Source: Bacillus sp. F19 | GTDB lineage: Bacteria > Bacillota > Bacilli > Bacillales > Bacillaceae | Reading direction: 5' to 3' | Length of the DNA stretch: 64,000 nt | Assembly: GCA_023823795.1 (NCBI GenBank) | Contig: CP085710.1 | Location: 2,320,001 to 2,384,000, forward strand | Shown: positions 53,241 to 61,311 of the stretch, one piece after another | How the letters are laid out: every line of letters begins with the position of its first letter | How positions within the stretch are numbered: position 1 is the first letter of the stretch | Made by a program: the position numbers and the translations under genes | Notes under the pieces: generated by a model | What the model was told of the DNA's origin: nothing | What the model saw: only the letters and a program-made list of their open reading frames with translations | Database searches by the model: none

Positions 53241-53336
53241 ATGAACAATTTTCAAATGCTTTCTTCAATCTTTAGAAGGCGTCCCATGATAGTATTGTTA
53301 CGCCAGTGGTACATTCTTGTTTCATTTTATTCGTAA
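53241..53336 (+). pseudogene. Truncated paralogue of the 53868 small protein
   Basis: AAGGAGG and ATG start MNNFQMLSSIFRRRPMIVLL, like MNNFQWINTLFNLG of the gene at 53868; it is cut after 31 codons where the integrase fragment begins. Confidence 0.5.
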
Positions 53337-53671
53337 AGTTTATTCATATATGATTCATATTTTTCCATAGATGATTGATCTATTTTCTTACTTACATGAG
53401 CATAAACATCTGATGTAATTTGAATGCTCCCGTGTCCAAGGCGATTTTGTACATATTTCGTGTCTGCACCTGATTCTAATAATAGGACTGCATGAGTGTG
53501 TCTTAAAGAATGAATGGGAAGTTGATCAATACCTGATCTCTTTAATATTCTGTTGAATGCATTGAAAAGAGAAGACTTAGGTAACGGACTTTGGTTGAAA
53601 TTGCAAACTCCACAACAGACCTTTAATTTTATAGGGGGTAAGTTTCTAAAGAATCGCCCCCAAGCAGACAT
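53327..53671 (-). pseudogene. Tyrosine recombinase (integrase), C-terminal fragment
   Basis: HSLRHTHAVLLLESGADTKY, VQNRLGHGSIQITSDVYAHV is the RxxH...LGH...Y part of the catalytic domain; the first catalytic Arg region and the N-terminal arm- and core-binding domains are missing. The first ~25 residues (to VCCGVCNFNQ) look unrelated, so the fragment begins near 53600. It marks a former prophage or integrative element. Confidence 0.8.
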
Positions 53672-57006: not shown

Positions 57007-58094
57007 CGAATGCTCGCTTATTCGATATATCATTTAAGAAAAAAGCGGTGGATTTATATCATTAAAAGAAGAATTATGCTGCTGTTTCCAGAGAATTAAA
57101 CATTCATCGAAAAAACATACAACGGTGGGTTAAACAGTTTAGAGAAGATGGGATTGTTGGTCTTAGAGAGAAACGCGGAAGAAAAAGTGGGTTTGGTAAA
57201 GTCTCTTTATCTACCAATGAAAGTCCTCAAAAGAAAATAAAGCGATTAGAAGCTGAGAACGAACTGTTAAAAAAGCTTTTAAATATGTGAAAGGGAGAAT
57301 TGATTTAGAACCTAGTAACCTATTTCAAATCATTGATGATTTATCAAAACAAACTCATTCTATACAGCTACTTTGCCATCTGGCTAAAGTATCAAGAAGT
57401 GGATACTACAAGTGGGTAAAGCGAAAAGCATAACCTTCGGAAAAGCAGGTAGAGGATGAGAAATTAAAGCAGCAAATAATAGAATGCCATCAGAAACATA
57501 AGGGCATCTATGGCTATAGAAGAATACAAATTTGGCTAAAGAGGACCTATGATATTCACATTAATCACAAAAAAGTCCAACGATTACTAAGTGAGCTAGG
57601 TATTAAAGCAATTATCAGGAAAAAACGAATTTATTATGGTAAGAAAGAACCTTTTCTTATCTCAAATAATTATTTAAATAGAGCCTTTTACGCTTCTCGC
57701 CCTAATGAAAAGTGGGTAATTGATATTACGTATCTCATTTTCAATGGACAGAAACTATATTTGTCTGCCATCAAAGACCTATATAATAACGAAGTTGTTG
57801 CGTACCAAATTAGTAGACGCAATGATTATAAACTAGTCTTGGATACGTTTAAAAAAGCCATAAAAGGAAGGAATGTAAAAGGAATCCTTCTCCATAGTGA
57901 TCAAGGATACCAATACACGTCCCATAACTATAATCAGCTACTCACAATAAATAAAATGAAAGCTAGTATGTCTAGAAAGGGCAATTGTTGGGATAACGCT
58001 AGTATGGAAAGTTTCTTCAGTCATTTAAAAACAGAGTGTTTTAACCTGTATACTTTTAAAACTTCACAAGCTCTTTCTCATAGAGATCTCTGAT
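57007..58094 (+). pseudogene. IS3-family transposase remnant
   Basis: An orfA piece (NYAAVSRELNIHRKNIQRWV, KRLEAENELLKKLLNM) is followed by an orfB with THSIQLLCHLAKVSRSGYYK, KGIYGYRRIQIWLKR, the DDE parts WVIDITYLIF, GILLHSDQGYQYTSHNYN and MESFFSHLKTE. A TAA interrupts orfB near 57433. The C-terminus is lost at ~58080, where FKTSQAL changes to unrelated sequence. Not functional. Confidence 0.85.
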
Positions 58095-58273: not shown

Positions 58274-58381
58274 AATATGTTTAGAGACGTTTTGATCAAT
58301 CTTCTTTCAAAACAGTCTTTTTTATTTTTACTAAATCAAGTTGGCTAGTTCAATCAAACTTTATTTTAAACCAACAGCAGG
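58243..58381 (+). repeat. Dispersed terminator-bearing repeat, copy C
   Basis: It starts TTATTAAACTTTTTTATAAA, has a central hairpin of GACGTTTTGATCAAT and TTCAAAACAGTCTTTTTTAT (weaker than in copies A and B), and ends CAATCAAACTTTATTTTAAA with CCAACAG. The left end overlaps the last codons of the oxidoreductase remnant. Confidence 0.7.
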
Positions 58382-58397
58382 GCAAAGAAATAAAAGA

Positions 58398-58443
58398 AGC
58401 CTGTATCAATGATTACTTGGTAATCTATGATACAGGCTTTTTA
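58398..58443 (+). terminator. Terminator hairpin
   Basis: AGCCTGTATCA and TGATACAGGCT form an 11-bp stem with a 19-base loop, followed by TTTTT. Confidence 0.8.
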
Positions 58444-58634
58444 ATTCAATAGTTAATTGTAATTATATATATTTAACATAAAGCCTGTTGCAAGTTGCTG
58501 CCGGAACCTTTAAAGATCGTCTGGTACTTTTCTGACAAAGTATAAAAATTACAAAAGGAAGCCGAATGGCTGCTCACCTTTCAATCTTTTATTCTAGAAA
58601 GACCCCTTTACAAAGGAGTTTCCAATCAATCACT

Positions 58635-60413
58635 TTATTTTTCTATTGTTACAATACTCTCTGCCATCTCTGGAAAATCAATAAATGGGTTCCGATTGCC
58701 TTGAAGTTCATGGATAGCTAGGTTGCGATGCTTTTCATAGATGGATACCGGAAATGTTTGATGCCATTTTAGCAATAAAGAGACATTCTCTAGTTCTTTT
58801 TTAATGGTGTTTGGATAGCGAATTAGGAAATAGAGTGTTGCTCTGGCAACGATTCCTTTGCCGTATTCTGGTTCGAACTTACTTTCTTCAGCCTTGCCGC
58901 AGCCATCTTTGATTCCAAGAATCCATCCTTCACCTTCAGGGACATAATCGGGGAAATCATAGTAAGGATGGTTGCTGCGACTGCTATTGCAGGTGGGTTC
59001 GCAGGCAAATAGATGATGCAAGTCTCCTCTCATCGGTTCTTTTTTATCGAACCATGATTGAGGAACTACATGTTCACAGTTTAATAGATCTTCCGATAAG
59101 CTGTCGATTAACCCTTTTGCCTGCAATTCATGGAGCCGAATATCCTCCTCTATGACAGAAAGTGGATTCATCCCTTTTCCAGAATAAAGGCTTTTTAATG
59201 AACCGTTTTCCTGCAAATCAACCCATGGGTACACATAACGGTGCGGGCTGTAGTTTAACTGATCTGTATGTGTTTTTTTAAGCAATGTATGAAGGCTGTC
59301 TGACAGATTAGCATCCGTGAATGAAATGCTCTGATAGTATTGGTTCCTGACTTCCTTATCATTCTTTTCGTCATAATAGGGTCGATTTTCTTTATATTTT
59401 AAAAAGTCTGACTTGGCTGTTTCCCATTCACTGTTTAGCAATTCTAGCTTTTCCATTATATTTTCAACGCCTGATAATTTTTGGTTGAACACATCCGATA
59501 AGTAGTCCTCTGCTGTTAAGTACAGCAAACCGTTGCCTTCGAGTTTTGGCGAGTTTCCTAGAGGAACCGTTCTCTTTATTAATTGCGCATACAGCTCAGG
59601 CTCTGTCAAATTTCGCTCAAAGTTTTTGTTGGCAATCTCTTTAATGAGCGCAAGTGCACCGGATATATGCGGTGTTGCCATCGAAGTTCCGCTTAGTTTT
59701 GCATACTTTCCGTTTAAATGTGTTGAAAGGATTTCTTCACCAGGAGCTACTAAGTCGACTTCATTATTCGAATTTGAAAATTCAGAATAATCGTGTTGCA
59801 GATTAATGGCTCCGACGCTGATGACTTCATTGTAGCAGGCAGGATAGGCCAATTCATCTGAAGAATCCAGTCCATCTCCCTCATTTCCAGCAGCACAAAC
59901 TACTAGAATTTGCTTAGCGATTGCGTTTTGAATAGCATGATGCAACTCAGATACATCCTCAGAACCACCAAGGCTCATGGAAATGATATCCGCCTTTTGT
60001 TCAACTGCATAGTTAATTCCATTAATGATCCAGTCGTATTGACCTGATCCATTTTTATCAAGCACCTTTATAATCAGTAAACTTGCTTCAGGTGCAACCC
60101 CAACTACTCCTGTATCGTTATGGACGGCGGCAATTGTGCCAGCCACATGGGTTCCATGGCCATTAAAATCAGTGTATACATCAGGATTTCCATTATCATC
60201 ACCAGTGAAATTCCGTCCCCCGATAATTCGCTCACTCAAATCAGGATGGGTGACATCGCAGCCTGTGTCCAATATTGCAACCGTGATTCCCTTCCCTTTC
60301 GATTTCTCCCAGATTTTTGGAGCCGCAATAAGCTCAATACCTTTTGGCACCTCATACACCGATTCGACCTCTGCATTCACTTGATAAGGAATTAAATGTA
60401 ATTTCCGCTCCAT
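58635..60413 (-). CDS. Intracellular-subtilisin-type protease fused to endonuclease I domain
   Basis: 592 residues with no signal peptide or membrane helix, so probably cytosolic. Residues 7-10 are LIPY, the inhibitory pro-segment motif of Bacillus intracellular subtilisins. The S8 domain (~28-305) has a full active site: Asp49 (AILDTGCDVTHPDL), His86 (NGHGTHVAGT), oxyanion Asn177 (CAAGNEGDG) and Ser244 (LSGTSMATPH). Residues ~325-585 form an endonuclease I domain: NCEHVVPQSWF (446-455), MRGDLHHLFACEPTCNSSRS, KGIVARATLYFLIRYP (519-534) and GNRNPFIDFPE. Ordinary intracellular subtilisins end near residue 320, and endonuclease I relatives are normally separate secreted enzymes. GGGAGGG precedes the ATG. 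The protease could activate or release the nuclease (inference). Confidence 0.9.
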   Translation of the reverse strand: MERKLHLIPYQVNAEVESVYEVPKGIELIAAPKIWEKSKGKGITVAILDTGCDVTHPDLSERIIGGRNFTGDDNGNPDVYTDFNGHGTHVAGTIAAVHNDTGVVGVAPEASLLIIKVLDKNGSGQYDWIINGINYAVEQKADIISMSLGGSEDVSELHHAIQNAIAKQILVVCAAGNEGDGLDSSDELAYPACYNEVISVGAINLQHDYSEFSNSNNEVDLVAPGEEILSTHLNGKYAKLSGTSMATPHISGALALIKEIANKNFERNLTEPELYAQLIKRTVPLGNSPKLEGNGLLYLTAEDYLSDVFNQKLSGVENIMEKLELLNSEWETAKSDFLKYKENRPYYDEKNDKEVRNQYYQSISFTDANLSDSLHTLLKKTHTDQLNYSPHRYVYPWVDLQENGSLKSLYSGKGMNPLSVIEEDIRLHELQAKGLIDSLSEDLLNCEHVVPQSWFDKKEPMRGDLHHLFACEPTCNSSRSNHPYYDFPDYVPEGEGWILGIKDGCGKAEESKFEPEYGKGIVARATLYFLIRYPNTIKKELENVSLLLKWHQTFPVSIYEKHRNLAIHELQGNRNPFIDFPEMAESIVTIEK

Positions 60414-60609
60414 TTGTATCCCTCCCAGAATTAAGTTTCTGTGTATTCTTGGTGTTACTAATAGTTTAACAATTCAGAATCCGTATAAACAGTTACAATG
60501 GATGTGTTTTTATCGAACGAATGTTCTTTCGAAGAAATGTACTTAAACTAAAGTAGCAGTTTAGCTGAAGCAGACCTAATGTACAGTTTGGTCGAACGAT
60601 GATGCAAAT

Positions 60610-60663: not shown

Positions 60664-61311
60664 TTACAACCATTCATGGGATTCATCCGCAAACTTTTGA
60701 AGGTAATTCATAAATAATCCTGCATGATAACCGTCGCAAACAGCATGGTGAACCTGTAAAGAAACTGGAAGGAACTTAACAGTTTCCATTTCCACAATCT
60801 TTCCTGCTGTAACAATTGGTAAAAGATAATTGTTATCATTATTAATGTTGAGATTAAAAGCAGTGAATGAACTCCAAGGAATCATTGATATATTAAAAGT
60901 ATTATCAGGAATAGGAGTTTTAGGAAATAATTTTCCAGCATCATTATATTCATTTATATCAGCTTCATAATTTTTATGAAACTGATTAAAACTATCAAAA
61001 GTGTTAGTCCAAATACTTGAGAAGGTTTCTGAAACTTCATCAAATATTGTATAACTTGGGTTCATTTTTTCCCAATATCCTAATTTTCCTTGATTATTGA
61101 AACAAGTTCTATAAGCACTATTTGAATTTATTACTTTTGTAACCAAATATATAAAACAAGGATAAAATTTATATCCTCTTTTCTTGATATTTTTGTAAAA
61201 TATACTAATATCCAAGTCAACTGTCATACTAAATGTTGTCTGCTGATTCAAATAATGCTCAAAATATTCTTTTCGGTGCCATTTCTCTATATCAATCATT
61301 TTAAAACTCAT
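60664..61311 (-). CDS. cat: Chloramphenicol acetyltransferase, type A
   Basis: 215 residues, the length of Gram-positive CatA enzymes. Motifs include FSMTVDLDISIFYKNIKKRG, FYPCFIYLVTKVINSN, FNISMIPWSSFTAFNLNI and the active site VHHAVCDGYHAGLF with catalytic His189 and Asp193. It acetylates chloramphenicol with acetyl-CoA; the active form is a trimer. An attenuator with a nine-residue leader peptide precedes it (61318-61374), predicting drug-inducible translation. Confidence 0.92.
   Translation of the reverse strand: MSFKMIDIEKWHRKEYFEHYLNQQTTFSMTVDLDISIFYKNIKKRGYKFYPCFIYLVTKVINSNSAYRTCFNNQGKLGYWEKMNPSYTIFDEVSETFSSIWTNTFDSFNQFHKNYEADINEYNDAGKLFPKTPIPDNTFNISMIPWSSFTAFNLNINNDNNYLLPIVTAGKIVEMETVKFLPVSLQVHHAVCDGYHAGLFMNYLQKFADESHEWL

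Follow-up and report, generated by a model that had tools for sequence, protein, structure and literature searches.

An intracellular subtilisin and Endonuclease I operon of Bacillales, at times preceded by a LexA-type box and fused into one reading frame in Bacillus sp. F19

Introduction

The described members of the Endonuclease I family are typically secreted or periplasmic enzymes. The intracellular subtilisins (ISPs) carry an inhibitory LIPY/F propeptide, depend on calcium and are described as recycling proteins in stationary phase (PMC6220982). Proteases and nucleases also meet in the gated pairs of Hachiman, AVAST and canu, where adjacent protease and nuclease genes have been recurrently assembled and a death outcome is reported (PMC12799240). 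S8 protease domains are found in IetAS, and in 'subtilase' (PDLC03014), a model of the PADLOC collection that is so far undescribed.

In this work we follow up one gene in a stretch of 64,000 nucleotides of Bacillus sp. F19 (assembly GCA_023823795.1, contig CP085710.1, positions 2,320,001 to 2,384,000), hereafter the window, whose own numbering is used throughout. An initial annotation, made from the letters alone, had read this gene as a protease-nuclease fusion that stands by itself in a defence-prone region. We show below that the noteworthy object is a two-gene operon, an ISP followed by a cytosolic-type Endonuclease I, which is the usual form among relatives.

An intact reading frame with two enzymatic halves

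The fused ORF occupies 58635..60413 on the minus strand and has 592 codons (592 aa) with no internal stop. ORF calling, translation and Pfam confirm both domains, with Peptidase_S8 at residues 40-283 (E 6.4e-69) and Endonuclease_1 (PF04231) at residues 372-582 (E 5.4e-32; 111.9 bits against a cutoff of 25). The ISP half, residues 1-312 that are common to relatives, lies at 59478..60413 (minus strand) and hosts the LIPY propeptide motif at 7-10 and the triad Asp49/His86/Ser244; the nuclease half, at 58635..59456 (minus strand), runs to the stop from Met320, the start codon of the two-gene relatives, and hosts the EHVVPQSW and GNRNPF motifs. These residues, together with Asn177 and the other nuclease motifs quoted in the initial annotation, are all in the places given there. 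A ribosome-binding site, GGAGGG, is located at 60420..60425 (minus strand), based on the sequence and the alignment of relatives.

By sequence, the closest relatives of the S8 fold are ISPs. The top solved relative of residues 1-310 is 7xr8, annotated as 'Major intracellular serine protease' (E 1.2e-131), and the likeness to this and other ISP structures (7y6m, 6f9m, 2wv7/2x8j) extends to the LIPY motif, the triad and the export signal, which is seen in neither; the leader is, by inspection, not hydrophobic. The genome of the window encodes two more ISPs, which are 62% and 58% identical to this one. Unlike the known ISPs, the window ISP groups apart from paralogues of the same genus, is operonic with a nuclease, belongs to a type that has a LexA-type box in several lineages and, in this genome, has a nuclease domain appended.

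The C-terminal half of the nuclease profile matches the Endonuclease I structures 2g7e, 2vnd and 1ouo of the EndA/Vvn group (E 8.5e-11 to 3.5e-10), and the positions of EHVVP and NxxRxN correspond. All 33 aligned rows keep the E-H-V-x-P site unchanged, and the string EHVV is present in 105 of the 138 rows of the nuclease tree. Unlike the structurally characterized members, the nuclease belongs to a Bacillales group that we judge to be cytosolic-type, because a hydrophobic N-terminus is not seen: the N-terminal hydropathy (15-residue Kyte-Doolittle mean) is -0.57 for the window nuclease and at most 1.46 over the 138 rows, none of which has an evident hydrophobic leader by this measure. Export signals in relatives, which the initial annotation had named as evidence against its own reading, were therefore not found by hydropathy, and its description of a zymogen protease of ISP type with a cytosolic-type Endonuclease I is supported. 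The predicted structures are of low quality, with a pLDDT of 50.7 for the nuclease and 42.3 for the fusion.

Both halves have dN/dS values below 1, a signal that mostly predates the fusion. In comparisons with the congeneric genomes G004, G006 and G001, respectively, these are 0.12, 0.24 and 0.17 for the ISP half and 0.12, 0.18 and 0.27 for the nuclease half, the latter computed codon-aware with a 6-nt indel accounted for.

The fusion is found in one genome

The initial annotation treated the fusion as an evolved architecture and the gene as standing alone. Neither description holds among relatives. The fused form is seen in just one of 65 distinct pair loci, the window's own, and we have rejected it as an evolved protein architecture; the other 64 loci have separate ORFs forming a two-gene operon, six of them with both genes in the same frame but divided by a stop. 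The three congeners each have two genes, with protease identities to the window of 94, 95 and 98% and nuclease identities of 94, 95 and 96%. In the pair loci retrieved to compare the junction, the protease stop and the nuclease start share 1 nt (TAATG) or 4 nt (ATGA); the exception is L041, where an ATG immediately follows the protease stop and there is no overlap.

The junction zone at 59466..59480 (minus strand) is 5 nt shorter in the window than in G004 and, judging by ISP length, than in the other close two-gene copies, which brings the two frames into register. The 5-nt difference is located just before the gene overlap and between 2-nt direct repeats; it is not a homopolymer slip, and its position fits a slippage event. 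The fusion is probably a small and recent event, restricted to a single genome.

Distribution and evolution of the pair

Of 81 genomes in the family, 14 have the nuclease (E up to 1e-15); at 1e-20 it is present in 91 of 397 genomes of a sample of the order and in 20 of 398 genomes of a sample of the class. An S8 gene is directly upstream on the same strand at 31 of the 99 nuclease loci of the order sample and absent at 68, a count that includes the overlapping L223 and L250 and leaves out the short fragment G264. The ends of the two genes overlap in 24 of these 31 pairs, are separated by at most 100 nt in five and lie slightly further apart in two. The start/stop overlaps suggest that translation of the two genes is coupled.

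The pair is patchily distributed. It is present in four of the eight genomes of the genus, each partner is also found alone, and four of 72,556 plasmid records, in Lysinibacillus and Priestia, reach a query coverage of 80% or more.

Pairing clusters strongly on the nuclease tree. On a FastTree phylogeny of the nuclease (138 rows, 62 paired and 75 not, with rows under 230 aa dropped) S8 adjacency requires eight changes, whereas 200 shuffles need 44.9 on average and never fewer than 37. Most pairs are located in two clades: clade A has 59 rows (46 paired, 12 unpaired and 1 unscored), clade B has 15 rows that are all paired but L064, and outside these there are isolated pairings at L104 and L186. 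In a tree of the ISPs, built without duplicate rows, hits under 150 bits or spans shorter than about 230 query residues, the A-type partners separate from the genus-wide paralogues with a local support of 93. Two loci, L161 and L172, combine an A-type ISP with a B-type nuclease. We tentatively propose that the pairing arose at least twice, in trees of FastTree quality with long branches.

A LexA-type box in the protease promoter

Site scoring identified a LexA/SOS-type box, AGAACATTCGTTCG, at 60514..60527 (minus strand), which is 101-114 nt upstream of the ISP start. It is a palindrome of the form GAAC-N4-GTTC and agrees with the Bacillus subtilis LexA consensus, given as CGAAC(n)4GTTCG (PMC4551915), except at the first base, which also differs in some lexA boxes. 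The upstream regions of lexA and recA host boxes of the same form, e.g. AGAACATTTGTTTC and AGAACAAATGTTCG, in the five genomes checked. The window box reaches 18.7 bits on a matrix that 13 lexA/recA sites of related genomes define; the 13 sites, each left out in turn, score 10.5-19.2 bits, 12 of them below the window box. In close relatives the box is found at -114 to -118, with the arms mostly kept and a variable centre.

With a threshold of at least 12 bits, the box was counted in the promoters of different classes of ISP gene, using identity of at least 65% to the window ISP ('ISP-A') as a proxy for the clade in the ISP tree. It is present upstream of 15 of 46 ISP-A pairs, 10 of 27 ISP-A genes with no adjoining nuclease and 3 of 12 other pairs, as well as 11 of 611 unrelated upstream regions; these counts are not phylogenetically independent. 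None was found for the 18 unpaired ISPs under 65% identity (the genus paralogues and a few others) or for two phage ISPs. The 31 ISP-A pair promoters without a box include the Lysinibacillus and Ureibacillus copies and the L141-L152 group.

We also considered the nuclease as the SOS-regulated part and rejected this, as standalone nucleases lack the box: with a simpler score, none of 71 reaches 8 or more and three reach 7.5. For this reason we assign the box to the ISP promoter and, given its presence at 10 of the 27 solo ISP-A genes and none of the 71 lone nucleases, we take the ISP to be the regulated core and the nuclease a frequent partner.

The position of the box fits repression plausibly in several lineages. 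In L136-L140 and L071 it is 4-7 nt upstream of TGTTATAAT, and in L200, L203 and L210 it immediately follows a promoter of the form TTGATA/TTGTTA-17-TATAAT. In the clade of the window no clear -10/-35 pair was seen beside the box, and a promoter scan of the window listed none there. Across G000, the genome of the window, the pattern RGAACN4GTTYG is not enriched, with 25 matches versus 50 for the reversed control. The strict LexA pattern CRAACRNRYGTTYG gave few sites, just one of which was seen adjoining a pair. The initial annotation had named mother-cell lysis among the possible roles; no obvious sporulation promoter was seen by eye at the locus.

Two further observations concern these promoters. 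A second conserved element, GAATTGTTAAACTATTA, is found at roughly -60 of the ISP starts in close relatives and partly in distant ISP-A promoters, and is possibly a second promoter or operator. In the Neobacillus/Bacillus loci L044, L048 and L051, ISPs that are 85-87% identical to that of the window have a LexA-type box and no nuclease; these genes sit next to what, by eye, is a gene for a CstA-like carbon-starvation transporter.

Genomic setting

The locus is in an accessory position, as the initial annotation had proposed: about 2 kb is shared with congeners, and the remaining flanks are unrelated. The common block is at 58377..60528 (minus strand) for G004 (96%) and G001 (94%) and at 58562-60528 (minus strand) for G006 (95%). 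Beyond it, the window and the fetched flanks of the congeners share only short repeats of 37-222 nt. A terminator-type hairpin follows the nuclease at 58389..58446 (minus strand; -26.6 kcal/mol, z -6.9). The LexA-type box forms the upstream edge of the block between the window and each congener. We dropped the idea that it marks the exact edge of a moving unit, as G004, G006 and G001 have roughly a further 0.1-0.25 kb upstream in common with one another, and otherwise the block only.

A chloramphenicol acetyltransferase gene (60664-61311, minus strand; Pfam CAT, 258 bits) adjoins the operon promoter on its upstream side and lies outside the block. Fragments of an IS3-like integrase-core (rve) ORF and of a phage-type integrase C-terminus are located at 57761-58093 (plus strand) and 53327-53671 (minus strand), signs of past mobile elements. 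A phage origin was dropped: pattern scans of viral contigs found nothing related to the fusion, to the nuclease or to the alignment of nucleases, and none of the 102 phage records with a match reached 80% query coverage. The two records inspected, the large Bacillus phages SP-15 (L106) and Goe8 (L107), each encode an ISP homologue, and the flanks retrieved showed no such nuclease.

The initial annotation further suggested that the gene lies where defence genes often gather, and the flanks of relatives lend this no support. PADLOC models matched 66 families among 150 of the 152 listed flanking ORFs of 17 pair loci, each in at most two ORFs. Single ORFs do match defence models, e.g. mad2/3/8, RT, GajB, QatD and Cas1, and a recurrent defence family was not seen; these counts cover the flanks of pair loci. 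Pfam found 220 families in the flanks, and the 25 commonest, each in at most four ORFs, are mostly transporters, regulators and metabolic enzymes.

Comparison with known systems

The cassette of two genes, with a LexA-type box in some lineages, is a genuine variant within known enzyme families, and one that is undescribed in the literature searched. We found no report of an operon of ISP and Endonuclease I, or of DNA damage switching on such a protease and nuclease jointly, in a search that had most subscription journals outside its reach.

The gated pairs of Hachiman, AVAST and canu are similar in joining an adjacent protease and nuclease that were recurrently assembled. They differ in their parts: the HamM/canu class combines an MBL-fold nuclease with a trypsin-like or caspase partner, whereas the window gene combines Endonuclease_1 with Peptidase_S8, a subtilisin. 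No sensor gene and no gate were seen at the window pair, and cell death, reported there, can be proposed only by inference for the window pair (PMC12799240). In the main text of that paper, a word search found no subtilisin, subtilase, endonuclease I, LexA or SOS response.

The PADLOC 'subtilase' model matches the S8 domain over residues 34-296 with 124 bits. IetAS has an S8 domain in common with the window gene, but the match to IetS is confined to the S8 core (34.8 bits with PADLOC and, with NCBIfam, 22.8 bits where the cutoff is 900), and no ATPase-like ORF resembling IetA was seen beside the gene in the list of neighbouring ORFs and a scan of six ORFs of the window.

A proposed function and its alternatives

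Our preferred reading, to which we give a probability of roughly 0.45, is that the pair is an accessory two-gene cassette for SOS-inducible, Ca2+-gated self-digestion, perhaps abortive against phage or prophage, and is fused in this genome. It starts from what the comparison of loci has established, namely the architecture, the gene overlap, the patchy occurrence and the box itself. LexA would repress the cassette, as the comparison of promoters supports, and release would follow damage to the DNA, that under phage or prophage stress included. The subsequent steps we infer from the enzyme families. The ISP would be produced as a zymogen that its propeptide blocks, with activation requiring calcium and loss of the propeptide, and so would stay idle in a cell that is repairing its DNA, firing only on failure of the ion balance. 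Protease and unspecific nuclease could then digest the proteins and DNA of the dying cell, leaving it dead beyond recovery, destroying any phage genome and freeing nutrients. In the fused form a single chain would carry both enzymes, and the protease may release the halves by cutting itself in the 305-345 linker. Of the initial annotation's view that the need for tight control of such a protein suggests a programmed role, the control survives in this form, with the LexA-type box and damage-triggered release; the fusion as an evolved form and the isolation do not, and the defence setting found no support in the flanks scanned.

If this reading is correct, DNA damage turns on a protease and a nuclease jointly inside the cells of many soil bacilli, the ISPs include a damage-response paralogue, and a subtilisin/Endonuclease I version joins the protease-nuclease pairs recently shown in immunity. 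A bolder version would have a widespread, accessory, LexA-controlled self-destruction module in Bacillales, a counterpart of caspase and caspase-activated DNase that was repeatedly assembled from different ISP and nuclease lineages and here became one self-excising polypeptide. We regard this version as doubtful.

The alternative that survives best, though we consider it somewhat unlikely, is ordinary recycling: ISP and nuclease would be co-transcribed for breakdown in stationary phase or in dead cells, with no suicide or immunity, and the box would be incidental or mostly lost. The recycling role described for ISPs (PMC6220982) speaks for it, as do the absence of the box from 31 of 46 ISP-A pair promoters, the everyday character of the commonest neighbour families and the occurrence of each partner alone. 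However, the other ISP paralogues of the genus fall into other groups of the tree and, like the rest of the unpaired ISPs under 65% identity, have no box; moreover, the pair is found in only half of the genus genomes examined and its overlapping genes suggest coupled translation.

A dedicated antiphage pair, in which the ISP cleaves and thereby activates a pro-nuclease upon infection, is improbable. Protease activation of the nuclease would follow the example of PMC12799240, with no gate seen at this locus, and the recurrent pairing parallels the pairs of that paper; copies on plasmids, varied surroundings and a damage switch would fit, and so would the match of the S8 half to 'subtilase'. Yet the nuclease is an Endonuclease I with no MBL fold, and a nuclease without an ISP neighbour is the commoner state (68 of 99 loci). 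About 50 residues precede the nuclease Pfam domain, of which the first 25 or so are poorly conserved, and no conserved cleavage site was seen in this N-terminal stretch. Nor was a recurrent defence family seen in the flanks scanned.

Finally, for the window copy alone, the fusion could be a sequencing or assembly error, or else have arisen recently by chance, neutral or harmful and with no function of its own; its uniqueness and the slippage-like 5-nt difference would agree with this, but we think it still less probable, as the junction has no homopolymer and both halves are intact, with a dN/dS of 0.12 against G004, though most of that signal is older than the fusion.

Some other S8 and Endonuclease I genes have unusual forms. 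At L003 (G000:C1:1611746-1612714) and L034 (G005) the match of a second ISP paralogue continues beyond an in-frame TAA. Many S8-matching frames in G000 (e.g. C1:2975184 and C2:85808) are very large, about 1170-1500 aa and in some cases above 2000; the chromosome and a 507-kb contig both have them, a seemingly unusual expansion. At L101, on a contig of a Paludibacter MAG, there are three consecutive Endonuclease I-like ORFs, two of them with long C-terminal extensions.
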